From Nautilus pompilius (taxonomy: Eukaryota > Mollusca > Cephalopoda > Nautilida > Nautilidae): DNA of 64,000 bases. The stretch's first letter is position 1, and every line of letters begins with the position of its first letter. Below the pieces are notes generated by a model. That model was not told where the DNA came from. It saw only the letters and a program-made list of their open reading frames with translations, and ran no database searches. The stretch covers positions 186,001 to 250,000 of the forward strand of contig JACATO010002142.1 in the NCBI GenBank assembly GCA_018389105.1. Direction: 5' to 3'. This document shows, one piece after another, positions 15,291 through 56,731 of the stretch. Both the position numbers and the translations under genes were made by a program.

Positions 15291-16900
15291 TTCCAAAATT
15301 TGCTGATTTTCAGTGAAATCAATATGCTCCGAGGAAATTATTAACAGCGAGCTATTTCGTATTCTGTTTGCTTATGAACAGTTATCTATAATTCCATGCT
15401 GACAAAATAAAATGTTCTTTAAAACAATACCATGTGTTTTTTTTTTTTAAAGTTCAAACTTCAATAAGTGTACATACTAATAAAAATTGCTAAAATAGCA
15501 TTCATAAGAAAAATAAAGTGATCACGTATTGAAGTTGGATTCTAAGCTTTCTTATCAACATTAAAACTGCTTTACCTTTTTCAGCTGTTTCTCTGAAACA
15601 ATGGATGTAGAAAGTACTCGGAAGAAAACTTAAATGTGCTAACAGCCACATCTACTTAAGATCTTACAGTATGGATAGTTGGAAAGAAACCTTCAGGACA
15701 AAATTAGAGTAAAACACCTCCACCAAAGTTTTGGAATGCCTTTAGTCTCCATACTGTGTGTAAAGTCTTCCTCTGAATAACTAATAACTTACCCCAAGCA
15801 GATGGGAATTCTAAATGAGACTACTGCTAGGACCATTATTTCTACCTGTCCTAGTTTGCTGATTGATAATGAACCTGTGACTCTGGTTCTCTATCAAAGT
15901 GGTAGAAAAAAAATCATTTCAAACATGTGCCAGGGAGAAAACTATTAGCCTTGAGATTATGGAGATTTAATAGAGACATTAGAAAATTTTAAGAACAAGA
16001 TAATCTTTTTTGTTCTTTCAGGTCACAAGGGACTATGATTTACATTTTAGCAAGCTGGTGTATGATACATTCTACCCAACAAAAATCAATGTACCACATT
16101 CAGCTCATTTAAAAATGCAGTAGACAAATGGTTTAGAAGGATGGACTCAGCTTCCCTGTAACCATTACACACTTTGCCATCTGCTGTCCTTGTTAATGCA
16201 CCTTCTTGCTATGACAGGGAACCAAAGTTTGATTTCCATTGGAAATTGACTTGGTTTGGCAAACTTCTCATATCATGGTTTCTGCTTGCCCTTTTGAACC
16301 ATTCAGTCATCATGAACTCCCTTAGGGCATTACAATTGATTCCCACAGCTAAACAAAGGAATTAGAGTAGGATTTTCCATTTCCTAATGAAGAATGCAGT
16401 GCCAGGTTCACAAAGTGCATAAATGGTAATGCTCATTAGGGTTTAAGTTGTACAGAGGTAGGACTTCGGATTTTGTTACTGGAAACTAATAATGGAGAAA
16501 TCACTGAAGGCAGAAAGTTATACTGCACAGCTTTTCTCCTTCAAAAACGAACCACATTTTCCAGAAATTGCTGTTTGGTAGAATATTTTAAAAGAAATTA
16601 AAATAATAGCCACTATTAAAAACTTTTTTTTTCCAGTTATATATAATAAAAAAGTAGTAAGCTACAGCTTACTCTGTATAAAAATTAAACACTAATAAAA
16701 AGGTAATCCATGCCATTTTTAATTAAGTTTTACATTGCTCAGTTACCTGAAGTTTAAATCTTGATAGCAAGTTAGAAATTGGTACATAATTAGGGTATTA
16801 TCTAAATGGTAAAGTGTGTTGTAGCAGAACAGTAGCATTTCATAAAACATTGCCAACAGAGTTCTTTCCCTTTTTTTAAACAATAAATCAACATGTACAC

Positions 16901-17405
16901 CAGGGGTCGGCAACCTTTTCGGCTCGCGGGCCGGATTCAAAATTAGCCGCATGTCCGCGGGCCGGATGGTTATGAGTTGCCAAAAATCGTTTCTATTGCC
17001 ACTTTACATCTATAAATTAAGTGATTTCTTAACAATTGCAAGTTAACACAGCTTACCGATGACAAGTAATTAATGCGTAACGCGCTCGCAAAAACTCTGA
17101 CAGACTGTTATCAACGTGTGCGCTCACGCCATTTTATAGTAGCCCTGACCTGCTTTCGGACAAAACACCTGAGTCTGCGCGCGCCTTGTCAATTTTGTGC
17201 GTGCATCGCACACGTGATCACACGTCTGAGCGCCCACTTGCAAGCGCGTGCAGCACTCAAGAACGCTTGAAAAATAAAAGGCACACACAGCCATGATTTC
17301 TCAAGGACTGAATATTTTGTCATTTTTCCGGAAAGGCTCCGCGGGCCGGATGAGAGTGCCTCGCGGGCCGGATCCGGCCCGCGGGCCGTATCGTGCCGAC
17401 CCCTG
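16901..17405. mobile_element. Non-autonomous hAT-type transposon (505 bp, MITE-like)
   Basis: Terminal inverted repeats begin CAGGGGTCGGCAACC on the left and end ..GTGCCGACCCCTG on the right. Both ends carry repeated GCGGGCCGGAT motifs. The element is flanked by a perfect 8-bp target duplication, ATGTACAC (16893-16900 and 17406-17413), as expected for hAT. There is no transposase; open frames inside are incidental. The interior is strikingly CpG-rich compared with the CpG-poor surroundings. It lies in the last LYSMD intron, 172 bp from the candidate exon at 17577-17667. Confidence 0.93.
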
Positions 17406-17576
17406 ATGTACACCGAGTATGGAGACAATATAGATGCCAAACAAATCAATAGACTACAAAAAAAGCATACAGAAAGCAGATGTAGAGATGAGAACACAAG
17501 CAGCAGAGTAAAATGTTAAGTTTAGTTAGACTGCTGGGTTATGGAGAAATATACCTCAGTCACATGATTGATGGTG

Positions 17577-20600: not shown

Positions 20601-23475
20601 AAGGATGTTCAGAAAACCACATGCACCTTGAAAGAAAAAATAGCTCCCTTTCCTATACTTGATGCATTCACCTTGACTCTGTATGTACACTTACTTTGCT
20701 GACATCCTACAGTTTGGGAGTTATAACTGACTGAAGAAAGTAACTTTATGGTCACCTGATAATGTAAATCAGGTTACTGCTATTGTAATTATTATTATTA
20801 AAAGTACTAACTTTATTTAGTGTTTAAAATATTGTAAAATGCAACTTAACACTAGATTCGAAGAGAATAGTTCACAATGTGATAATTAGAGAGACTGCCA
20901 CAAAAAGAATCTACTAATTTTCATGAGTTTAAAATATTTTGTTTAAAAAGTGAACAGTTCAAAGCAATTTCAGAGAACTCTCTCTCGTTCATCCAATAAG
21001 TTTCTGAACCCTCTTATACTACCTGGACTGCATATGTACCCAACCTTTAAATCTGTATTAGTCAGCATAGATTGAGCTATAAAGGTAGGCTGTGATATAC
21101 CTTATTGATTGATAATCCTTGGTAATGATGCATTCATATTGTTTCAACCATGTGTTTTGCATTATGAGCAACATACTGACTAAATATACAGCTAGTTCAA
21201 CACTCATACTAGCGCATCTAAGTTAGGGTACAAAAATATCCAGGTATAGGGTAAAAACTGACCTGGCGTAAAATAACTTTTTGCCTCACCTGAGCAAAGA
21301 GGCTCCTCCATTTTCTACTACTCAATTGAGTAACAGCAGCTATTTATTTTTGTGTATACTTTGTAAGGCAACAAGTCTCTGCTTTCTCTTCAGGACATGT
21401 GCTATGACTTTTTTTTTTTCATTACAAGTCTCCAACATAATTAGGAGAAAAAGCATTGTCATCAAAAAAAACAGGCAAAATGAAGGCGTATTACAGTTTT
21501 TCATGCAGTTGACTTCAAATAAATAGGTTTTTGTTGCTTGCACAAAGGAAGCAGTGTTAGAGACACACACAGCAAACATTGAAACTTACATGTTTGCATT
21601 GCATTAAGTCGTGTGTCTTTTCAGCAAAACAGAGTTTAAGTCAGGAAAGAAAGACTATCACAAAAAGGTGGCGGGCCCACTAAAGTGTTGACTGAAGATG
21701 ACAGATTCTTAGGATTAGTGTCTGCGTTGCTAAACACCACCACACCTAATGGCAAACAATAGTGGTGGCCAAGTTGGTAAAGAGATGTGTAAAATGAGTT
21801 TACTTAAGAAAGTAAGGGTGGTCTTAAAAAAAAAAAAAAAAAGATAATGGAACAAGTAAATATCTACAGTAGAATAACTAATGTTCATTCAAAAGATAAA
21901 TCCATGATTTTCCCCAGAACACAGCTAATGAACTCCATACATAGATGCTACTAAAATGAAACTGCAATTTTCAAATAGTCACTTATGTCCAATATAGAAA
22001 TTTAATAACCTGCAAAATACAGGAAAATCTTGAAGTTGATGACTTGCTTAGAGCCAGTCTTCACATTCTTTCAGTGATATAGGTAGTATTGTAAAATAGA
22101 ATACTAAGTGGCTTAAACATCTGCATTTCTTTTTTATGTTTAGACCTGATCATGCTATTTTGAAATTCCATCGATATCCTCATCTGACCAGGTGTTTTAT
22201 ATTCCAAGAAATTTATAGGTTTGGTCGGTCTTGTTTAGCGTCTATCTCTACTTCAAACTGTCTGTAAAATTCCAGTTGTTACAAACTTGAATAAATTATA
22301 TCAGTATAGATTTCCATGCAACATTTAGTATACAAAAGTTAGAAGGCTTTTGGTAAATGCCACATGAGATATCCTGATCATATCACTCACTCACGCACAT
22401 TTAGCACCAAAAATATAGTTTGTACAATTATTTCTCAATTTCTAATATTTAGAGATTTAGCAGATAAACTTCCAAACCATTTCAAGATGACCAACATCCT
22501 ATGGGAAATAAACTACTAATTAGTTTTTTTTTTTTTTTTTACAAGCCTCTATATACATTTTGAAAAGAATTCCAGATAAGTCTCCTCTAGTCATTCCATA
22601 ACTTAACTTTACTCTATACGCTATAAAACTGTATTGGTTCCCTAAAGTAGAACTGTTTGTTTTATTTTACTATTTCATTTCTAACAAATTGGCCAAGGCT
22701 CTATTCAAGTCCAGAAAAGCAGATGTCCATGTGGTGGTGGCATATTCCATAATTCTTTTGTACAGTTCACAGACAATAGTAAATTGAGTTTTTGAATGTT
22801 AGCTGGATGATATTTTACCATTTCTTGTTTGACTTTTCAAACAAAGGTACATTTTAAGTTCTGTCCAGAAGTTTGAAAGCCAATTTTAGATTGCTGATTA
22901 GCCAGAATTGTTATGATTTGCACAGACTGAAAGTCAATTGTCTAGTTTTATAATATGGGCTCTAAATACTCATGCCATGTTTTGAATTCAAATTATAAGA
23001 TTGAAACAGCAAAATACTTCTGTTCTATCCAAAAATATAAATAGCAAATCTTTCATCTGCTCAAAAATGAAATCTATGGGAGGAAATTCAATTCCATTTG
23101 TCAAAATCTACCATCAAAGACCAACCAGGATCAGGCTGATGGATTACTCCCAAAACAAAGAAATTCATTTAAAAAGTCATAACTAGTCAGATTTCTTCAA
23201 ACCAGTAGTAACCCATAAGAATAATGGCCTAGAAGCTCAAGGTCAGTGAATCAACTGACTGTAATGCGGTCAAAAAAGAGCTCTGATTCTATCCTTACAA
23301 ATTTCAAAAGAGATTAGTTAGTTCCTGATGGTGCAGTCACAACAAAAGCAACTGGGTCATTCTCATCAACTCAACACTAGATTTTCTTCTGGCAGTTATT
23401 TTCCCCATCTTGTTTTTAGATAAGGCTCCATTTTATGCCAGATCTTCCTCAAATCAATAATAATAAAAAACTCAC
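17668..23475 (-). other. LYSMD last intron, upper part
   Basis: AT-rich intronic DNA with poly-A/T tracts (for example 18614-18630 and 21825-21842) and no supported exon. It contains the dispersed repeat copy at 20140-20410. Short open frames here occupy simple sequence. Confidence 0.5.
20140..20410 (+). repeat. Dispersed repeat shared with 26780-27030
   Basis: About 250 bp aligns in the same order to 26780-27030. Shared blocks include 'caatttgtaaaga', 'ttctcaaat..agaatgaaagtct', 'taataaaata', 'aatcattgactggca' and 'aatacagcttatagtttt'. No terminal repeats or coding sequence were recognised, so it is probably an old non-autonomous element. Confidence 0.65.
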
Positions 23476-23897
23476 CCATCCGTCAAATGTAAGAGGTGCC
23501 TTCTCTGTTGGCTTGAGCTAGCATCACCAGTGACAGATGAATTGTATTGGTTTTTGTCCCTCAAGGTAACAAAATCAATGCCAAAATCTGGAGACTTATG
23601 AGAAGTATTAGGCATAACACTGAAAATAAACTCAGGACATTTACCCACTTGGCCCAAACATCTGCAGAAGTGATTATCCATCAAGTCTGAAAAAGTCTCA
23701 GACAAAGTTGATTGGCTGCTGCTATCGTCGTCCAATCTGAATCCCCTAGATTTTTTTCTTTGGTGAACATTGGAGAAAAACGCTTGCTTGAGATTCCTCA
23801 AGAACTGTTCTGAAATGCTAATAGCTTTCCCTGATGTCTCCAAACTTGCATCAAAGCCAGAGGCAGATTCATCAAATGATGTTAATATCAATGTAAA
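23476..23897 (-). CDS. LYSMD1: LYSMD1/2-like gene, exon 3
   Basis: An open frame of about 140 residues is bounded by TTCTTTAG|TTTACATTG (acceptor) and GATGG|GTGAGT (donor). Its 422 nt run from phase 0 to phase 2, and the exit phase fits exon 4 exactly. The peptide is Ser-rich: SFDESASGFDASLETSGK near the start, SRGFRLDDDSSSQSTLSETF in the middle and GDASSSQQRRHLLHLTDG at the end. No domain is recognised; LYSMD linkers between the conserved core and the C-terminal tail are typically low-complexity. Entry phase 0 does not match the phase 2 left by exon 2, so an extra small exon (length 1 mod 3) or another acceptor is needed. The acceptor pyrimidine tract is weak. Assignment to this gene relies on strand, position, phase with exon 4 and open frame. 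Confidence 0.6.
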
Positions 23898-27039: not shown

Positions 27040-27390
27040 TCCAAAAGAACTGTCAATACACTTCATGACAAGACACTTTCTGATTATTTCTCCGATACCC
27101 TTGGCACTGAACTTGCATTGATCCACCTCCATGCTTTACTGTAGCTGTTGTATGCAGACTGTTATACTGCTCCCTAGTCCATCTTTAAACAAACTGCCAT
27201 TGATTATTGCCAAACAGTTCAAACTCGGGCTCATCTGTAGAGAGAACCTTCCAGGTTATCCCAGTTTCATTTCTGCTGTCCATTTCAGCCTTGCCATTTG
27301 GTCACGTTGCCTCTCAGCAAAAATTTCCAACTACACATTCATTTAGACCACTTTGCACTAATGTAAAATGTATTTTACTTCTTTTGTGAA
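27040..27390 (-). mobile_element. Tc1-like transposase relic (catalytic core fragment)
   Basis: Minus-strand translation gives a recognisable but broken Tc1 core. It reads WKVLSTDEPEFELFGNNQW (the region normally reading W..V.W.DES.F.LFG, around the first catalytic Asp). Then come a stop and TREQYNSLHTTATVKHGGGS, the conserved KHGGGS motif. Stops and frameshifts interrupt it and no clear inverted ends were found. It is dead and lies in an LYSMD intron. Confidence 0.75.
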
Positions 27391-29272
27391 ATTGCTAACA
27401 TCTGTACCTGCAACTAAGTTATTTGAAAGATTTAACTGGCTTGTCGTTTATCTCAAAGAATATATCCTAATTTGCTTAGCCAAAATTTGCAAAATCGATG
27501 TTTTATTCCTCAACTGTGTCTATTGTCAACAGTACCAGTTTTGCATCCTACATCAATTTTGCATACAGCTGAAATAAAGTCTGGCTACAGTCTGCCACAT
27601 GTAGTAGTCTTCATTAGCTAAGACAGATTTCTATGAATGTGTCATGTATATGTAATACTTCCTTCCAAAAAGCTATAGCATTCACCACACTACAATATCA
27701 TGGACTACGGAAGTATAGGCTTTCAGCAAGTGTGACAATTCCTGATTGCAAGCATGACTTTATCAACACATGACTATACCATGAAGCATTTCAATTTTAT
27801 TCATGATGCAATTCCATTAAGTGTCATTTGCATTTTATACCCAATTTTCTAGTTTCCTTAATTATTTCCAATATTGTAAGTGTTCACCATTATTTGAGTT
27901 TTATTACTTCAGAATTACTCAATTTATTTCCTTATTTTTTTTTAATTACTTTGGAGAAAAAAAAAAGAAATCAATCCTAAAGTGTTTACTTTTAAGAACC
28001 AATGTTTACTTTCAATTTTTTTTTTAAACTACAATGAGCATTTAATATGCAGAATACTTTTCTAAATTGTCTTATCCGTCCACTTAGCTAACAAGTGGTT
28101 CTTAAAAGCAAGTTCTAGCTTGTGAAGTGAAGATCGTGTGATAGGAAACCAACTGTAGAAGTTCCTATGTCGCAAGACTAAAGTCTTTCAGGAAAACTGT
28201 ACACAAGTCAGAAAACAAATGTCATTAGATTAGGAATTGTCTTGGATTATAGGAATGATATTTACTATGCATAACTGTTTATAGCAGTTTTTTTCCCCAA
28301 GCTAAAATAAAAGCACATTACAAACTTAAAGGAATTTAGAACAACATTTAAAAAATGTATTCATTTATATTAAACTGTATCCAGCAATTTTATTTTAAAG
28401 TGATTTAGCTTTTAGTTTTTTTTTAAAAATTCCTACTTTGTCCCTCCCCCCACCCAAATAATATACTATTTCCTCTAGTGATCAATTAGTAAAGAAATGT
28501 GAATCATTAATAAAAGTTAACTCTGTTAAAATTATCATTACAATTTGCCAGTGAAAATAACTCTAGGAAAGCTAAATCTGCAACAACATATCAAGATCAC
28601 AATACATACACATGCATGCCTTCTCTCTTTGTGCTTGCTTTGACTAAGATCAACTGGACCATGTTATGGATACACAGGTTGCAGATCTAGTACAATTTGC
28701 CAGTACTATCATTACCAATGCAGTATAAGTGAGAACTGGAATTTTTCAGTAAACACTCAGAATGGCTTAGGTCCCAGATAAGGAACAGCTATTTTCCAGT
28801 TTTGACTCCAAAGGCATAAGATTCAGATAGTGATATGAACAATCAGGATGAGTATGGAAATGCAGCAAGCATCACCCACCCAGGATTTGTCTCTTTTAGT
28901 GGAGGGGTGGTTCATTTTGCCAGATCTGGACTCCAAAGAGCATCTTTAGGACAAGAGAGTTGGCTCTTCATATTCCGGAAACATTCTGCCACAAATGGAG
29001 TTATTTAGGCAGCATGGCAAAATTCTAATATATTCAGACAAGACTTCCACTTAATTTGCATCACTTGAAACTAAGCTACAATAACATGGTGTAAGAACCA
29101 ATTAGAATTAACATTGTACTAAAGTCAAAATATGAGTCTTATTTAAAGAATTTAATACTGTATAAACAGATGAGTAGAAGGTATTTATGAACATGTACCA
29201 TTCTGTAAAATGTAGACCAATAAATTTGAACATTTTTGTAATAAAGATTAGGTAAATGCCACTTTGTCTTAC

Positions 29273-29565
29273 CTACTGTTTTCCCCCATTTTTTGAACAT
29301 TATACTTCAGCTGTGCTATGTTGCAATCATATCTGCTAAGAAAGTCTTTGGCTGTTACATCTGGTGTTTTTGCTGGTTCTGAAGAGTTGTGTGTAAGTTC
29401 TGTTCTTGAATTATTGGTGTTTTTCACCACAGAGTTTACCCGCACGGTCTCTGAGTTCTCTGGAATGCACTGTGAGTTTTCTTTCGTTAGAGGAATCCGT
29501 AAGTATTCCCGTATACAAAACTCATCATTCGACCATAATTTGTTTTCTCTTTTTAACTGTTCGAC
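29273..29565 (-). CDS. LYSMD1: LYSMD1/2-like gene, exon 2 (second half of LysM)
   Basis: Acceptor CTTTTACTTTCAG|GTCGAA enters in phase 0; the donor is best read as AGTAG|GTAAGA (293 nt, exit phase 2). The peptide opens VEQLKRENKLWSNDEFCIRE and continues YLRIPL, the second helix and last strand of a LysM domain. It joins in frame to KYGVS of exon 1 or KYGTT of the alternative exon. The middle is a Ser/Thr/Asn-rich linker. The end, DVTAKDFLSRYDCNIAQLK, is the conserved helix of LYSMD1/2 proteins (family pattern (A/S)xDFLxxxDxxI). LysM domains bind N-acetylglucosamine-containing glycans; the role of the intracellular animal proteins is poorly established. An alternative donor three bases plus one earlier (AACA|GTAGGT) is weaker. 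Confidence 0.9.
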
Positions 29566-35660: not shown

Positions 35661-37948
35661 GAATCTGCAACCCTCATAACCATTAATAATGAACATGGTC
35701 TCTTAATTTTCATTAGATATATTTTCTGATTAATCAATCAGCCATTTTGCTGATTAGTCGATTATGAGGTTTCATAACAGCAAATGGAAAACTTTTTTTT
35801 TTTGGTAAGAAAAAAAAAGGACTGGAGTATTATTGCTGTTTTCCATATTACACCAATTTTTGTCAACAAATAAATTTATCCAGACTAACAAATAACCAGT
35901 GGCATATATGGCAAATCGTACAGACATTCATTCAATCACTACCTTACACATGCATAACCTATATACATTTTAGCCACACATTTTGGAGAGAGAGAGAGAC
36001 CAATTGCCCTTAGACTTCGTTTCTCAAACCAAGCAAGCACATAACTAGGTGAAGGCTAAAACTAATGCAAATCTAAAAACAATTACATTCAAAACACAAG
36101 ACTTAAGTTTATAAAAAAAAAATAATACAATTTTATAGTAGAAAAAGAAATCTTCAAAAGTTTAATGTTAACTAATCAATATAGGTATATCCAAGTCCCA
36201 ATTAATAAGTGCATTTAAAAGCCAAAATATTAAAGCAATATTGAGTGTTACAAACATTCAATATTTAACATTTATGAGGCTTCTAAAGGCTGTCAAAAAT
36301 ACAATGAAAATTTCCTATTTGAAATCAAAGGCTTAAAGATTTATGTTAAAGAAATCAACATAGTTGTGTATTAATCTGAATTTGGAATGGAATGACAATG
36401 TGAAAGCTAAAGCATTTAAAGTAAAACTTGTCTACAAACAAAGATTCAAAATTGGAAACAATTATGAAAGTCTGTCAAAAAGTACAACTTAGCATTTAAA
36501 GCTATCAAAAGCTTTTAAATTATAATGCATAATCAAATGGATTGAGGCAGTATTTTGTCGGCTCATATGTCCACAATGATAAAAAGCTGTTTGTTTACTA
36601 TCCATGGAAGATGGAGATGTACATAAAAGTTGGGCACAGGTGCATTTTCACCCTTTTGAAATGGAGAGCATTTCCTTTCCACCACTGCAAGGATCTTCAT
36701 CCATAAGTAGTGGGCACAAATCAGGATGTTCTTCAACCTCAATCTCTCTTTAACAGCAGTGATAAATATATATATATTAGTTCTTAAGGATCTGTGGTTA
36801 GCTTTCTTGTAGAAATGACAGCTTAATCACTGAACTTGCTAATATTTTAAAGGACAATTACTTCGCATACTGCAAGGAAACATTCTAATAACGATGCAGT
36901 GCAATACAGGTACTCTGTGCAATGATCATTTCTGATTTCAACCATATTTTAAATATTTTTTTAGTCTTTGTATCTGTATGCATCTTTGTTTCTTCTTCCA
37001 TCAAAATATACTGGCAGGATGTTGCGATAGATCACAAGTTCTCAAAGTTTACATGAACTGAGAAATCAGTTAGGGGGTATTTTTACTCTTCAGTTTTCAA
37101 TAATAATTGAAATTGTATTGCTAAGATTTTGGGTAATTGAATAAAATTTGAACACACGAAGTTTCATGAACATATCTGTCACAAAGCTTGTAATGATACT
37201 GTGTACGGAAATAAATTACTGGCTTCCCAGCAGAAGCAAAACAAAATTTATTATAAATTCTATTAATTTGCATATTAACTGTTAATCAGATATTCTGATA
37301 GCAGCAACTCTAATTTTGATTTAATTTTGCTTTACCAACATTAGGTATATTGTATGTATGATGTGAATCTATTCAACCAGAGCTCATCTATGGTTAAAAA
37401 AAAGAATAAGTTCTTCAAGAATGGACTTTCATACTTAGAGGAGACAGAAAAAAGTGAAAAATTATTTGTCAATAATAGTCCAAGCAAGATATTTATAACA
37501 GATCTAAAAAAAAAAACTATGCAGGTAATGATTCTCATTCCACTGAAGGTAATTATGCAATAATCTTGATTGTCACACGAGTCATATCTAAAATAAACAT
37601 TTTTAAAATCTTGCTAAACCAGTATACCTCTAAATATTCAAAAGGGCCAACTCAAGAAACAATGTATATGCAATAAAAGGAATTTCATGTCACACCAAGA
37701 ATTAGTTGATTATCTGTATTTAAATTAACAAGATGATGATGAAAGCTAAAGATACAGATTTTGTGTATACTACACTAGATGCTGCACCTAAATTTTATTT
37801 GTAAGAAGTAGATTAAAGACAAACACAAGAAATAACAGTTAGAAAGATGAGGGAACAGCTTTTTCATCCAAAAGCAAGCCAAGTTGTACAACAAAAGGCA
37901 GGTAAACAAATACTTCAGATGACTTGTGGTAGATGTGTATTTACTCAC

Positions 37949-38098
37949 TGTGGTGCCATACTTCAAGGCAATCCCCATGAGAGTCTCTCCTGGTAGCACT
38001 GTGTGCTTCATGTAGGAGGCTGAAGGTGAATGGATGGTGGTAATGATCCGCCTTAACTCTGTCATACCTACCCAGTCACCCACCAGGACCTGCTGCAT
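37949..38098 (-). CDS. LYSMD1: Alternative first exon of LYSMD gene (second LysM-start exon)
   Basis: An ATG opens a 50-codon frame ending ACA|GTGAGT, a consensus donor in phase 0, the same phase and same LysM position as exon 1. The start reads MQQVLVGDWVGMTELRR and the LysM half reads KHTVLPGETLMGIALKYGTT; exon 1 has KHFVSPGDSLVGIALKYGVS at the equivalent place. Either exon would join in frame to VEQLKRENK of exon 2. An in-frame TAA lies 36 bases upstream of the ATG and no good acceptor is visible, so a first exon with its own promoter fits better than an internal cassette. The exon is more GC-rich than its surroundings and its LysM residues are conserved, which argues for selection. It could also be a dead duplicate. 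Confidence 0.7.
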
Positions 38099-40617
38099 GC
38101 TGCTTGGCTTGACACACACAACTTATCATTGTGACAGCCAGCCCAGTCACATCACATGATCATGATTATCAAGTTGTTAGACCATACTGGGTGACCCAGA
38201 TAATAAGGGGAGTGAAAGACGACAATAAATCTTACAGTAAGGAAGCAAAAATAATGTAAATAAAATCTAAGGAATTTTGTGGTTATGATAAACTAATTAG
38301 TCATGTAAATAAAAGCACAGCAAAAGTAATGTAACTAAACAACTAGATAGTTTCAGTAAAAAAATGGTTGCTAAGAATTATTGTTATTATTATAAATTTA
38401 AAGTATACTGCTTTGCTGGCTAACAGAAAGAGCACACACTCCCTCTTAAATATTTTATATTTATACATATATGAATAAAATCAGCATAAAGATCAACAGT
38501 TAATCAGATACAGTTATGAAAGTAGATTAACATAAGTATTAACTGTTTAATCTGTGAGAATTTAAAGACTTTATACAGCTTCTACCAGGTGGGCAAACTA
38601 GTTAAAAGGTAATTTCAAAAAATTGACAAAAAATGCACAACGAAGAGATCAACTATTCTGAGGTTTTGATATTAAAACCTTGAACTGTGTCTTTATGATG
38701 ACCCAAGCTGAGAAAAATCATCATTAATTTAAATATTAAAATGACTGAACTTTACACCTTTACCACAAAAGCACATTTAGGGAATGTCAAAAGGTAATTA
38801 GTTAAGTCAGCTTATAAAAATGATTATAGTAATTAGTTAAGTTTACTTTTAGAAAGATTGGTTAAAGATTTGATATTTAGAAATACCCAGACAGGAAATT
38901 CAAACACTACATTCTGCTACCTGTTGCTGTATCAATCAAGAAAAGAATACAGTAAAAATCATGTTTAATATTTCCGTGGAATACACTGCAAGCTTTCAAG
39001 ATTCGCACCTCTGAATTACAACCTCGTCTCATTATCCTCATTTAATGTTAAAAATTCAAAAAGTGGATATCAAATAAATAAAACAACATTGTGTGTACTT
39101 TACTTGCCAAACTGAGGTCTCTCATAATTCATGGAAGATAAACTGCTCTCAACCAAGCAGAGACTGAACTGTGAGCATCACTATGATAGTGACAATTTTA
39201 CAACCTAGTTTTCGCTTTCTAATTGCAATGGATCTCCCATAATTTTTCTTTCAAAATTTTAAGTGGAGAATGGCATAAACTTTATCTGATTACCCCTTCT
39301 CCATTATCAGATTCTGCAAATCTAAACAATCTTTGATAAAATATCATGATACTGCAATTTCAACTGTGATTGGTCCTTTGATTTTAAACTTTAAATTACC
39401 TGTGTATATAATACAAAGCTCATTCATGAAGAAACTTAAAGTTGTTTCTCAGACATAAAATAGCAAAATGACTAGCAAAAGTAGAGATAACTCATTTGAC
39501 AAAGTTATCTCTCTTGTGATGCAATGCATTTGCACTGACAAAGTTATAGCCCCTGAGATTCTTGTCCCATTTGTGAGTACAAATAATGACTTATATATTA
39601 AAAATAAATAAAAGCAAATTAATCTCCCTAACATATTTGTGAAATTCACATGCACAGACTAAATATTGATCTACAAAAAAGAAGTATTTTTAGAAATTTG
39701 CATGATACTAAATATTAATAACCTACAATATGAAAACTCAGTAAATACAGACATACCAAATGCTCCAGCATATATAGCCTACACTTTAATACTAACCTAT
39801 TTAATGTAATCAGCCAAAAGGGTACCCATATCTTTTTTGTTATCTCCTTTGTACCAGACAGGGAATTGAGTTGACAGACCTACTGAAACTAGGCAGCTCA
39901 AAGTCACATATGTTATCAACAAAAGGAACCTGATATGGTTAAAATAACCTAGTTAATTGTGAAAAGACAAAAGAAATAAGAATTCATTTACCTATTTAAA
40001 GACCATTTTCCATTGAGTTTCTTTACACATTAACAAATGCCATATAGAAATCAAAGTCCAACTATAATTTCTCTCGTACACTAGGTAGAAGTGGTCACGT
40101 GGGTATCTATTAGAAAAACTGTTTAACTTCAAAAATAAAATTAGAAAATTTTTGAAATCCTACAAAATGAATGTCTCAGTGCATTAATTATCAATAAATG
40201 GCCATCATCAAATGCAAAAAAAAAAAAAAAATTGTTATAATTATGCACCAGTCTGAAGCCTACAAATGTTTTACCGATTTCTGACAATGGCTGCTTTATT
40301 CTCTTTACATGTTATGGCTACTACAGTCTGTCACAACATATCAGATGCAGCAGTTCTCCCAAAGGATTTTTCTAAGTGACTAAAACAATGAGGCTTTAAA
40401 TAATGTTTGAATGAAATTAAAGAACTTGATATCCACAATTCTGATTTGGTTTACTAAACTAAATGATGTGCCAACTACTTTGAAATTTAAAGACAATTCA
40501 TACAAAATTCATTTAAAAAAGTAAAGTAAATAAAAGATGTAGCATCACAAAAGAAAAAAGAAACTGGGAAACTGATGGTTTCATTAAAAAAGTCCTTTCA
40601 TCTGTAAAACTAACCTA

Positions 40618-42203
40618 CAGCAGCGACAAAATTTGTAAGCGGATTTGGAGGAAAATTTTCAGATGTTCAAAACTTTTGATAAAATGACCAGTAACAGTGC
40701 ATTTCAGGTAATTTTCAGTGTTTCAGATGCTTTTTAAGCCTCACCATAAATGTGTACTAAAAAATTTGATTCTCAACAAAATTTTATTGTCATTTCATAG
40801 CGGAAAAAATAAGCAAATTTTGTTTCGATCTAGACAATGTATATTTGCAAAATAAGGCACTTTCTTGACATCTAAATCATTAAATACATTCTATTATTTG
40901 GTAGGATACCCGAAAATTACTGATCATGACATGATAGCAAGAGGGCATCGAATTGATAAGCTTATTGCAATAGTCAACCGTAATTTTACCCCATAATTCT
41001 TAAATATTTTTATACAACTTGCTCAATTTCATTAGCTTTGAAGCTCTAATACGTCTCCTTAGTATGCAACACGTTATCTATTGGATTTAAATCCAGAGAC
41101 TGAGGCAGCCATTCAGGAAGAGGAGTTTTTGAGGCTTGGAACCAATGCTTAACAATATTCGCAGTATGAATAGGCACATTGGAAAATCCAAGTCAAGGGC
41201 AAATTCTCATCAGCATATGGTTTGAGGACATTTCTCAAGATGTGCAAATATCCGTTGCTGTTCAAAGCTCCCTTGATTTTGCAAATCTGATCAATCCAAT
41301 GTCCAGAGAAAGAGCTCCAAATATTTATGCTCCCATCACTCCTTGAACAGTTGGAAGAATATATTTCTGATTCAACTCTTCGCTGATTCTGCATCAGACA
41401 TATCGCATACTGTCAGAACCAAACAAATTGAACTTGGATTTGTCCAACCAGACAACTTTGGACCACATTTCTAGTGTCCAGTTGATGTGCTCCCGTGAAA
41501 AATTGAGATGGCGCAAGTGCTTCTTTTGGGAAACGAATGTCTTATTGGTGATTGTTCCATTCAGTCCAAACTCATAGTCAGTTCCTGACAGTCCACACAT
41601 TAACCCCCCACTCCATCTTTCCACTGTTGAATTTCCCTATTGATGTCCACAGCTGTCTTCATACAATTAACTTCAGATAGCCTATGGATGCATCAGTCCA
41701 ATCTTTGGGTAGTTTTTCTAGGCCACCCAGAATGCAGACAATCTGCTATACTGTCCGGTGGCTTGGTAGAAATTCCAGGCTTGTCTGCAGGTTGTTCATT
41801 TCTTCTGATTTCCTCGGAGATTCAGGAATAAGGAAATTTAAGCTTTTTCAAAACCCCAACAATTCTTGAACAAGTAGTTGGAGAAAGTCTAGTCTTTCTA
41901 CCCATTCTAGGAATAATTAATCATATATTAGCCACACAAGTGATAAATATCAATAGGCCTATAAAATCCTACTATCATATCAAATTATTTAACTATTCAA
42001 AATCTGCTTATAAGTTTTGTTGTTACAAAATGACAAAGAAATAATTTTTTTTTATAAATAAAATCTTTTCCATGTAAATTTGTACTAGAACTTTAAAAGC
42101 ATCTGAAACACTGATAAATTACCTTTTTGTCTGATATATAAATGCACTGCTATTGGTCATTTTAGCAAAAGTTATAAACATTTGAAAATTTTTGCTACTA
42201 CTG
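40618..42203 (-). mobile_element. Decayed Tc1-like transposon with long inverted ends
   Basis: Ends begin CAGCAGCGACAAAA (left) and, read inward from the right, CAGTAGTAGCAAAA. Both are flanked by TA (40616-40617 and 42204-42205), the Tc1/mariner target. Imperfect inverted repeats extend roughly 200 bp inward, sharing 'cagtgtttcagatgctttt'. Minus-strand coding pieces in order are: HLRHLNFSREHINWTLEMW with WLDKSKFNLFGSDSMRYV (first catalytic region); SDGSINIWSSFSGHWIDQI; then, near 41050-41160, LPEWLPQSLDLNPID (normally WPxQSPDLNPIE). Frameshifts and stops make it non-functional. About 1.59 kb is full length for the family. Confidence 0.88.
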
Positions 42204-43914
42204 TAAAATCAAATCAAGTTTTATCCATGAAATTTCAATTTGTAAGGTGGACACAATAAAGACGATGTTAATTGGCTTTGTGGCAATAAAACTACCAAAT
42301 CATACAAATCAGCTTTAATGCAAGTGAAGGACAGGAATGGAACTAGACAGTTTGCTTTTTATTTACCAAGCACAAATTAATGAACAGATTATTCACCTTT
42401 ATTTGTAATGTAAAAAACAAACTTACCAGTTACACAGCAGCTCACTTTCATGTGTGGCATGCAGCTGTGACATTTTAGCAATTGATGCCTTTGTTATAAA
42501 TGTACATTTATTACACAATCAAAAACAATTCAAACTAAAGCTACAGTTGCTCAAAGTCAAACATACAAGCTAATGTGCTATAATTTACACGCACTTTGTT
42601 AAAAATCTAATAGTGCTAAAACTTGTAAATGTATGTCAGCACATTTTTTTTAGAATTTCTTCATACTATACTACTTTCTTGTTTGGTGATTTTTCTACCA
42701 CCAAAATCAGGATCAAGATAAACTGTCCTGATCAGTAGCTGACTACAAGTCTCTCTCTCACGCTACAGCTTTTTTTTTTTTTTTTTAAGAGAAGACTGAT
42801 CTGACATTATTCCATGTGCTTTCCTGCCTTTCTCCTTTTTGATTCTTTGTCATCTTTAATTTGAAGATCTGTTAGTCTGCCAATCATGTTTTCCAAGCCC
42901 CTTTAGTCTTTCAGCCATTTTTTCTTATGTAGTTTTTTTTTTTTGCTCACCTCTTGGAGTGAGAAAGCTTGAACAATTTTTCTTGAGCACTGCCAGCTGA
43001 AGATTTCTTGTCCAGATTTCAGATGGCATCCACCCCTGCCTGCAGCTATTCCCAATTTAGCTAGTACACTCAAATTTGCATTGATTATAAACATTCATCT
43101 TTTGACTTATGCAACACATCAACCAAACAGAATTTGTATTTCTCTTTTCCTATTATTCGCTCAATTTCCATCTACATGTCAATAAAACAGTATATCTCAT
43201 GCTTCTAGTGCCAGTAGTACTTATGCAGTCTGAGAGTGATCAAATGTGATGCAGGTCTCTAAACCCTTTGACCATTTACAAGACGTTCCCTCCTTTGGCT
43301 ATAAAAAAAAGAATTTTTGAAAAACATCCATCAGAATCTGCTATTGCTAAACTGAATAAGTGTTTGTTTGTTTTTTTAAATTTAATACTAAAGTATTAGA
43401 GTGTAAACACTTGACTTGGCTAAAGTCCAAAGTCTGTAGCCAGCTTTCATCAGACATGCATTGAAATTGACAACAAAAACAAGTGTACTCATCAGTAACC
43501 AGTTAGAAATATTCAAATCGCACAATTTTTCTTCCTGCAAAATCTTAATTTGTTCAATTATATACTTAAATTCCATCAAAGCTTTCCAACAAAAAAAAAA
43601 ATTAATAAATATACCATATATACTCTAACAAAGACACTGAATGCGAATTATGAATTGCATATAATGCTTTAATTTCAACCCAGTCACCTTGAAATTATAC
43701 CATACAGTACATACTGGAAGGTTTAATTGCTCACTTACTAATAAATTATTCATCAGATATGGAAAAAGTCAGTTATATGCATGTAAATACAACGTTTTAC
43801 AAAAGTTATGATGATTCATTTTATTCAACAGATGTACAAAAACCTTGCTTTGATATAAAAACATGAAAAAAACAGGTTTGTGTTCATAGCAATTTGGGCT
43901 GTTAGGATTTTAGT

Positions 43915-53380: not shown

Positions 53381-53960
53381 ATATCAAGTACAGTAACTAA
53401 TGACGGCGTATTGATATTACTATTATTATTTGGAAGATATCAAGTACAGTAACTAATGACGGCGTATTGATATTACTATTATTATTTGGAAGATATCAAG
53501 TACAGGAACTAATGACGGCGTATTGATATTACTATTATTATTATTTGGAAGATATCAAGTACAGGAACTAATGACGGCGTATTGATATTACTATTATTAT
53601 TATTTGGAAGATATCAAGTACAGTAACTAATGACGGCGTATTGATATTACTATTATTATTATTTGGAAGATATCAAGTACAGTAACTAATGACGGCGTAT
53701 TGATATTACTATTATTATTATTTGGAAGATATCAAGTACAGTAACTAATGACGGCGTATTGATATTACTATTATTATTTGGAAGATATCAAGTACAGTAA
53801 CTAATGACGGCGTATTGATATTACTATTATTATTTGGAAGATATCAAGTACAGTAACTAATGACGGCGTATTGATATTACTATTATTATTTGGAAGATAT
53901 CAAGTACAGTAACTAATGATGGCGTATTGATATTACTATTATTATTATTTGTAAGATATC
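53381..53960. repeat. 56/59-bp minisatellite, ten units, abutting a splice donor
   Basis: Ten head-to-tail units start 'atatcaagtacag' at 53381, 53437, 53493, 53552, 53611, 53670, 53729, 53785, 53841 and 53897; a broken eleventh starts at 53956. Unit lengths are 56 or 59 bp, differing by one ATT in an internal (ATT)n. Each unit contains 'taatgacggcgtattgatat'. Unit identity is very high (mainly T/G at one site). The last partial unit runs straight into the first bases of LYSMD intron 1. On the minus strand each unit holds GTACTTGATATCTTCC, a near copy of the true donor GTAAGTTGATATCTTAC. Confidence 0.97.
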
Positions 53961-53967
53961 AACTTAC

Positions 53968-54132
53968 CGACACTCCGTATTTTAGCGCAATACCAACCAA
54001 AGAATCTCCAGGTGACACAAAATGCTTAATAAAATTCGAGGCTTTCCGAATAGATATATTTGCCGTGCCATACTTCGTCTGACATTTGGCGAACTGTCCT
54101 AGCGTCTGCCTCTCACCGCCGCTATCGGCCAT
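53968..54132 (-). CDS. LYSMD1: LYSMD1/2-like gene, exon 1 (first half of LysM)
   Basis: The ATG at 54132 opens 55 codons: MADSGGERQTLGQFAKCQTK, then an Ile/Ser-rich linker, then KHFVSPGDSLVGIALKYGVS, the first strand and helix of a LysM domain. The donor is TCG|GTAAGT in phase 0, splitting LysM after GV(S/T), where animal LYSMD1/2 genes are also split. An upstream in-frame ATG (MIIILVK before MADSGG) exists, but the MADSGG start sits in a YY1-like context (CAAAATGGCCG) and gives a family-like N-terminus. No signal peptide or membrane segment is seen, so the product is probably intracellular. The gene is head to head with GTF2A2. LysM is a GlcNAc-glycan-binding fold; the substrate in animals is not established. 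Confidence 0.92.
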
Positions 54133-54415
54133 TTTGACCAAAATAATAATCACATGAACGCTTCTATTTGCTGCGAGGTTTAAGTTGTCGGGTTGTCGCT
54201 TTTCTCTCTCCTTAGGATATCCTTCTCCTTTTCTTTTTTTTCTGTAACGCGCTTAAAAATGAGTTCCCTAAAAAAAAAATTTTAAAAAATTAACAAATTA
54301 TGCAATCGGTTTACGCCGTAATCACACTTTTGAGCAAACAGAAACAAGCGGGTACGTTTCCGGTTTGACGGTTTACGTTATTGCCACTAGATGTCGTGCA
54401 ACTGTTGATGGGGGA
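54133..54415. promoter_or_regulatory. Bidirectional promoter region between LYSMD and GTF2A2
   Basis: Only 283 bp separate the two divergent start codons. I count about 15 CpG dinucleotides here, against near absence in most of the window, so it behaves like a small CpG island. On the minus strand the LYSMD ATG lies within CAAAATGGCCG, like a YY1 site. ACCGGAAAC near 54357-54365 (minus strand) resembles an ETS site. No TATA box is clear. Shared control of the two genes is inferred from layout. Confidence 0.7.
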
Positions 54416-54487
54416 ATGAGTTATCAACTATATAGGAACACCACCTTGGGACACACTCTTCAGGAGAGTTTGGACGAGCTGATCCAA
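54416..54487 (+). CDS. GTF2A2: TFIIA gamma subunit, coding exon 1
   Basis: 24 codons begin [20 protein letters not shown] and continue ELIQ before the donor CAA|GTACGT in phase 0. This is the highly conserved N-terminal helix region of the TFIIA small subunit, which forms a four-helix bundle with the alpha/beta subunit. TFIIA binds TBP on promoter DNA and stabilises it during RNA polymerase II initiation in the nucleus. The start is certain, because nearly all animal orthologues begin M(A/S)[10 protein letters not shown]. It is followed by a 5.0-kb intron containing the Tc1 at 55527 and a transposase relic. Confidence 0.98.
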
Positions 54488-54965
54488 GTACGTGTCGTGC
54501 ATGTGTTTGTTTTTTGTTATTTTCGAGGGAGTTTGTTTTTTTTTTGTTGTTGTTGTTGTTGTTCGTAGCTCGGAGATGGTCAGGTTTGATTGTATACAAT
54601 ACATGGGTTTGTTCCGCCAAGAACGATAACTGCTGCCGTGCCTGCCTGCCTGCCTATGTGTGTGTATGTGTAACAACTGTAAACTCTGGCCCACAGGACT
54701 CGTTTCTCTGTCACAGCTCCGTGGTAGGTTGTTTCCCGTACCCCAAGGAAGTCGCTAACCAGTACGGGGGCGATATTGTTGAATTAGCTGGGGATGCGAT
54801 AGGAGTAACCAAAGGAGTAAATGTGACTTGTACTGGATAGAGCAAGGGCAGCAAAACGCCTCCTTGTGATAGCATCTCCAAAGTGTCCTTTAGATTTATC
54901 CCTAATGTTGCAAACACATTATGATTCCATTCTTCTTTTTGTTGTTATTGTTATTGTTGTTGTTA

Positions 54966-55526: not shown

Positions 55527-56731
55527 CAGGTGCATCTCAAAAAATTAGAATATCGTGGAAGAGTTCGTTTTTTTTCCATAATTTAATTCAAACAGTGAAA
55601 CTTTCATATATTTTGGATTCATTACACATAAAGTGAAATATTTCAAGCCTTTTTTTGTTTTAATTTTGATGATTACGGCTTACAGCTCATGAAAATAAAA
55701 AATCCACTATCTCAAAATATTAGAATATTTCATAAGATCAATAAAAAAAAAAAAGGATTTATAATATAGAAATGTCGATCTTCTGAAAAGTATGTTCACT
55801 TATACACTCAATACTTGGTCTGGGCTCCTTTTGCACGGATCACTGCATCAATGCGGCGTGGCATGGAAGCAATCAGCCTGTGGCTCTGCTGAGGTGTTAT
55901 GGAAGCCCAGGTTGCTTTGATAGTGGCCTTCAGCTCGTCTGTATTGTTGGGTCTGGTGTCTCATCTTCCTCTTGACAATACCCCATAGAGAATCTATGGG
56001 GTTCAGGTCAGGTGAGTTGGCTGGCCAATCAAGCACAGTAATACCATGGTCAGCAAACCAGTTACTAGTAGTTTTGGCATTGTGGGCAGGTGCTAAGTTT
56101 TGTTGGAAAAGGAAATCAGCATCTCCATAAAGCTTGTCAGCAGATGGAAGCATGAAGTGCTCTAAAATCTGGTGGACGGCCAGTCTCAGTCCACTCCTTG
56201 TGAAGCTCCCCCAAGTTCTTGAATCGGCTTTGCTTGAAAATCCTCTCAAGGCTGCGGTCATCCCTCTTGCTTGTGCACCTTTTCCTACCACACTTTTCCC
56301 TTTCAGTCAACTTTCCATGAATATGCTTTAATACAGCACTCTGTGAACAGCCAGCCCTTTCAGCAATGACCTTCTGTGGCTTACCCTCCTTGTGGAGGGT
56401 GTCAGTGAGTGTCTTCTGGACAACTGTCAAGTCAGCAGTCTTCCCCATGATTGTAGTTGTGTGTACTGAACCAGACAGAGATTCATGGTATTTATACTGC
56501 ATAAATAGTAATTTACTCAAACTCGAAATGGAATATTCTAATATTTTGAGATAAGTTTTTTCTATTTTTTTTAGCTGCAGGCCATAATTATCAAAATTAA
56601 AATTAAAAAATGCTTGAAACATTTTAATTTACATGTAATGAGTCTAGAATATATACAATTTTCACTTTCTGAAATAACTGACAAAAATATTGAACTCTTC
56701 CATGATATTCTAATTTTTTGAGATGCACATG
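55527..56731 (-). mobile_element. Tc1-like transposon with inverted/direct repeat ends, transposase internally deleted
   Basis: TA (55525-55526, 56732-56733) flanks ends reading CAGGTGCATCTCAAAAAATT and, from the right, CATGTGCATCTCAAAAAATT. Inverted ends are about 210 bp, each with an inner repeat (tatctcaaaatattagaata), the IR/DR architecture. The minus-strand transposase starts MGKTADLTVVQKTL near 56448 and has an N-terminal HTH (AERAGCSQSAVLKHIHGKL). It then breaks at about 56180, where LHKEWTETG is joined to sequence encoding ILEHFMLPSADKLYGDADF in another frame, so the central catalytic segment is missing. The C-terminal part keeps FLFQQNLAPAH (Asp replaced by Asn in the usual QQDxAPxH) and WPANSPDLNPID, then a further frameshift. 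At 1205 bp it is shorter than the usual 1.6 kb. It is a non-autonomous derivative, inside GTF2A2 intron 1. Confidence 0.95.

Follow-up and report, generated by a model that had tools for sequence, protein, structure and literature searches.

The LYSMD1/2 proteins form a branch separate from LYSMD3/4, and to our knowledge the animal members have no settled ligand. They are reportedly tied to Rab32-family activation or to Rab32-type organelle pathways; our literature searches pairing LYSMD1 with the lysosome-related organelle and LYSMD1/2 with Rab32 returned nothing. Human LYSMD2 has an isoform without the whole first half of the LysM domain. We know of no second, alternative exon for that half in the family, and literature searches for an alternative first exon of LYSMD2, or for isoforms of LYSMD1 and LYSMD2, likewise found nothing. 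A broader precedent is the class of duplicated mutually exclusive or alternative first exons, in which a copy of an exon lies in the adjoining intron, leaves in the same phase as the original and shares a common downstream exon.

The nautilus gene studied here has the layout of this class. It also resembles the LYSMD1/2 family in having one LysM domain with ALKYG in the same place, but it carries a candidate alternative exon for the first LysM half, for which no counterpart in the family is known to us. Unlike the general alternative-exon class, the unit that would be swapped makes up one half of a lone, small LysM domain, and it is known here from DNA alone. We analysed a 64,000-base stretch of one contig (C2040, positions 186001-250000, hereafter the window), and searched the assembly of 727,640,739 bases in 2,558 contigs. 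Coordinates of all features are given in Table 1.

Table 1. Features of the LysM gene, in window positions; a slash marks an exon boundary.
Feature	Positions	Strand	Description
Exon A (1A)	54132-53968	minus	ATG, MADSGGERQ... to KYGVS; LysM first half; phase-0 donor TCG/GTAAGT
Exon B as first drawn	38098-37949	minus	ATG, MQQVLVG... to KYGTT; phase-0 donor ACA/GTGAGT
Minimal exon B, if acceptor cttcag/CCTCC is used	38019-37949	minus	Phase 1 in, phase 0 out
Short exon 1 (MADSG + 1 base), if internal donor GGCG/GTGAGA is used	54132-54117	minus	Phase 1, fits 38019
Shared exon 2	29565-29273	minus	LysM second half (VEQLKRENKLW...) and linker to DFLSRYDCNIAQLK
Candidate last exon	28985-28946	minus	(R)MFPEYEEPTLLS-stop; phase-2 compatible; tentative, picked by eye
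CpG-rich 5' part of gene around exon A	53968-54632		CpG o/e 1.26 vs 0.27 in window
GC plateau across exon B and upstream of it	37944-38224		Surroundings 32% GC; CpG-poor, o/e 0.12

Two exons each encode the first half of a LysM domain, as the initial annotation had proposed. Exon A translates as MADSGGERQTLGQFAKCQTKYGTANISIRKASNFIKHFVSPGDSLVGIALKYGVS and is followed directly by GTAAGT, while exon B translates as MQQVLVGDWVGMTELRRIITTIHSPSASYMKHTVLPGETLMGIALKYGTT and is followed by GTGAGT. Joined to exon 2, A scores 34.1 bits and B 35.7 bits against the Pfam LysM model (PF01476; cut-off 20.9), in one stretch each. The accompanying observation, that A and B end at a homologous codon with phase-0 donors and that both fit exon 2 at 29565, was borne out as well. 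Scored with generic matrices and ranked against the window's minus-strand sites, the donors of A and B fall at the 99.2 and 97.5 percentiles, and the acceptor before exon 2 is strong (99.9 percentile). The proposal that exon B is a genuine copy of the LysM-half exon, conserved over a long time and phase-compatible with exon 2, is supported. The 3' end of the gene is more tentative: the candidate last exon has an acceptor of 3.9 bits and codon log-odds of 4.5, and an alternative candidate, at 28943, does better on codon log-odds (7.5) and worse on its acceptor (2.9 bits).

The window as a whole is strongly CpG-depleted, yet CpG-rich at a gene start, a combination more typical of vertebrates. 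A tandem repeat with a 56-base unit (53381-53962, about 10 copies, 98% match) begins within intron 1, a few bases from the donor of exon A; its unit contains CpG, which exaggerates the CpG enrichment measured immediately beyond the 3' end of exon A. A second CpG-rich stretch, at 16251-17500 (o/e up to 1.08), lies downstream of the gene and is perhaps the promoter of a neighbouring one.

Against Pfam LysM, the single half encoded by B scores 21.3 bits, over the cut-off, and that encoded by A 19.5 bits. In a PDB search, A with exon 2 best matched 2DJP at 49.2 bits ('Hypothetical protein SB145', which we take to be human LYSMD1). For B with exon 2, two bacterial-type peptidase LysM chains ranked first (54.0 and 51.4 bits) and 2DJP third (48.0 bits). 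By these scores exon B is closer than A to the general LysM consensus. Its putative descent from LYSMD1/2 is argued from ALKYG, place and phase, not from the PDB rank. No Pfam domain besides LysM was found in A or B with exon 2 at E up to 1.

Other LysM loci of the same genome lie on contigs other than that of this gene. A profile search of the genome gave 35.5 bits at C637:867853, presumably an OXR1/mustard-type locus, and three matches below the cut-off on C424 and C304. A LYSMD3 stretch, used as an approximate query, matched C936:1473473 with 63% identity over 32 residues and had no match to A or B. A derivation of B from LYSMD3/4 or OXR1 was rejected, the GIALKYG matches in the genome being A and B only.

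A and B are identical at 13 of 21 aligned residues, and among the codons for these 13 residues 4 are identical and 9 have changed. The similarity lies in the 38019-37949 part of exon B. A 20-base degenerate pattern for GIALKYG occurred twice in the window and, with as many as one mismatch allowed, in none of 100 shuffled versions of it. Genome-wide it again had two matches, both in this gene (A and B). The same pattern read backward as a control likewise matched twice genome-wide, so the genome count alone is no evidence, and the argument is carried by one gene, one frame, and a homologous place and phase. With GTRAGT present 24 times in the 64,000 bases of the window's minus strand, a donor would hardly fall at the homologous codon by accident. 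Taken together, A and B are probably related by descent.

A DNA search showed the 701 bases around B to be single copy, and an origin of B as a repeat or mobile element was rejected on this ground. A protein search of the 727.6 Mb assembly with A and exon 2 recovered both of these, B and four weak matches (E 1.2 to 8.5); exon 2 was its sole strong match to the second half. Neither this search of the genome nor a sensitive tblastn search of the window gave a strong second exon 2 that could partner B, and B as part of a nested gene copy was therefore rejected.

We assessed past selection on exon B from its differences from A, which fall at codon positions 1, 2 and 3 in the numbers 8, 3 and 15 (21 codons of one sequence pair; position 3 vs position 2, Fisher p = 0.0004). 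In a first simulation, all change was placed on B and was neutral (4,000 runs at each of seven distances); at least 15 changes at position 3 together with at most 3 at position 2 were obtained in no run. A second and fairer simulation used two equal branches, with only synonymous changes on A (1,500 runs at each of six distances). With B drifting throughout, this outcome appeared in at most 2 of 1,500 runs. With drift confined to the last part of B's branch, it appeared in up to 1.9% of runs for the last half, up to 7.8% for the last quarter and up to 23% for the last tenth. The bias and the simulations thus indicate that, for most of the time since it was copied, B was translated in the LysM frame and held by selection on the protein. 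A recent loss of function in B would leave the same codon-position pattern.

The explanation we favour is that, long ago in a LYSMD1/2-like gene, the part of exon 1 encoding the LysM half was duplicated, and that the copy, exon B, has stayed within intron 1 as a functional coding exon and would be spliced to the shared exon 2 instead of exon A. The second isoform would then have KHTVLPGETLMGIALKYGTT as its first LysM half in place of KHFVSPGDSLVGIALKYGVS. This reading, in which B is a working alternative exon swapped for A by whichever way it is entered (its own start, a shared start or an unseen upstream exon), is in our judgement a likely one, resting on the copy, the open frame, the donor at the homologous codon, the single partner exon and the codon-position bias. 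We infer that B is transcribed and spliced at present. We consider it an even chance that this LYSMD1/2 gene yields two LysM proteins with different first halves of the domain, and perhaps with different N-termini, through a choice between the two copies of the half-domain exon from one promoter or two.

The initial annotation had gone further and drawn B as a first exon in its own right, an alternative to A whose N-terminus is unrelated to that of A. Of this, the duplicate exon and the phase fit stand, and the GC plateau and a coding-like N-terminus are in its favour; the lack of a CpG island, upstream ATGs and a rival splicing route count against it. The plateau is one of five stretches of such length and GC content in the 64 kb, the other four being CpG-richer than the window or lying in transposase DNA. 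A coding score like that of 38098-38021 was reached by 2 of 83 intronic ATG-started open stretches of 26 codons, which were not GC-matched, and against a composition-matched Markov control the N-terminus of B gave P = 0.12. The CpG o/e of exon B is 0.10, without an island; that of exon A with the 500 bases upstream is 1.26. Five ATGs lie upstream of the proposed initiator methionine of B (38185-38129), one of them overlapping it out of frame. TATA-like sites are found upstream at 38575, 38465 and 38459, in a window where TATAAA is common (62 on the minus strand).

Alternatively, B may be a 71-nt internal exon (38019-37949) joined from the donor at 54117 inside exon A. The isoform would then read MADSG-ASYMKHTVLPGETLMGIALKYGTT-VEQLK, with ASYMKH beginning directly after MADSG, and the promoter and MADSG would be common to both isoforms. 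By this route the supposedly divergent N-terminus beginning MQQVLVGDWV (38098-38020) would be intron. The join is in frame, and no second promoter would be required, in agreement with the absence of a CpG island at B. The acceptor-like site at 38019 scores at the 99.2 percentile, requires phase 1 upstream and lies 4 bases from the start of the A/B alignment; the donor-like site at 54117 is at the 99.6 percentile, is in phase 1 and outscores the donor at exon A's own end.

The coding set of our controls was drawn from 11 of 30 kinase loci, leaving out one duplicate (L041, of L040), 16 minus-strand loci and two with stops; beyond the composition-matched control it was extended by 6 of 12 hemocyanin loci (minus-strand ones out), for a total of 17 loci and 10,260 bases. 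None of the 496 GTs in this set scored as high as 54117. Against this, when exon A was recoded synonymously 5,000 times, 855 versions contained a donor as strong, 707 of them in phase 1; the protein sequence of exon A itself favours such donors, so the 54117 donor alone is weak evidence. Acceptor-like sites as strong as 38019 are also not scarce (28 in the window's minus strand, 13 in the coding set), the GC plateau and the coding-like signal extend upstream of 38019, and both sites were scored with the same generic matrices.

The two routes fit about equally well. Entry of B as a separate first exon, starting in 38224-38098, is overall somewhat short of an even prospect and slightly likelier than splicing from 54117 to 38019, which we also hold to be less likely than not, though it accounts for a share of the favoured reading. 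As to further upstream exons, two ATG-started open frames between A and B could serve as phase-1 first exons (donors above 6.5 bits), at 42951 (26 residues) and 42427 (11 residues); neither showed visible merit, and both were set aside.

A different possibility is that B functioned for a long time, either as an exon of this gene or within a tandem copy of it, and was recently abandoned, its frame and donor being leftovers. The absence of a CpG island of its own and the presence of the upstream ATGs are in keeping with such a relic, and the second simulation is compatible with constraint lost in the last tenth or even the last quarter of its history. The donor, the frame and the LysM consensus are nevertheless all intact, and B beats A on the LysM model; we therefore give an abandoned exon a minor share of the probability. 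It is much less probable that B is a poison exon, included between A and exon 2 to cause a premature stop and decay, and thus serving dosage control and not domain coding. Its 71 nt are no multiple of three, and A joined to 38019 does read KYGVS-PPT-stop, but the position-3 bias in the LysM frame indicates that B's own frame was translated. Chance, a recent copy, assembly error or contamination can be dismissed almost entirely: although GIALKYG is not rare genome-wide, as the backward control shows, and B with exon 2 is closest to bacterial-type chains, both matches sit at homologous places within one gene, shuffles of the window gave none, and B is single copy, differs from A at the third position in 15 of 21 codons, is CpG-poor like the intron around it and sits within a 543 kb contig.

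If the working-exon reading is true, the gene would contain a built-in switch of the LysM binding face, in a family with no ligand known to us. If only this half differs, a comparison of the natural isoforms would trace differences in binding or location to about 20 residues. The locus would also be a clean example of a half-domain exon duplication retained over a very long time. The suggestion that the two isoforms have different glycan-binding halves is not supported and stays conjectural; glycan binding by this protein is itself putative. It is for the LYSMD3/4-type proteins that recognition of chitin oligosaccharides or peptidoglycan has been reported (PMC12707137, PMC10220488).

Elsewhere in the window, transposase remains are found at 55848-56622, with a DDE_3 match of 40.7 bits, over the cut-off, and a weak helix-turn-helix match below it. 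By eye, more transposase-like fragments were seen near 41149-41624, where there was no Pfam match, and at 27100-27350. An open frame of 139 residues (23472-23891, minus strand) ends at a GTGAGT donor and had no Pfam match; its codon log-odds are well above those of the other two frames, and it is possibly an exon of another gene.

Several observations concern the assembly more widely. The nuclear assembly contains 117 COX1-like matches, mostly broken; in one copy (L017) the frame runs on through conserved positions when AGA is translated as serine, as in the invertebrate code. A search for tyrosinase-type units gave 15 matches at E up to 1e-20, with 7 on C557 and 7 on C1362, and a unit from these loci matches hemocyanin chains. 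We take the chains to be molluscan, and seven units per locus presumably fit nautilus. The two hemocyanin loci (C557:779675-791468 and C1362:511660-522919), with seven units each, may represent two genes or two haplotypes of one.
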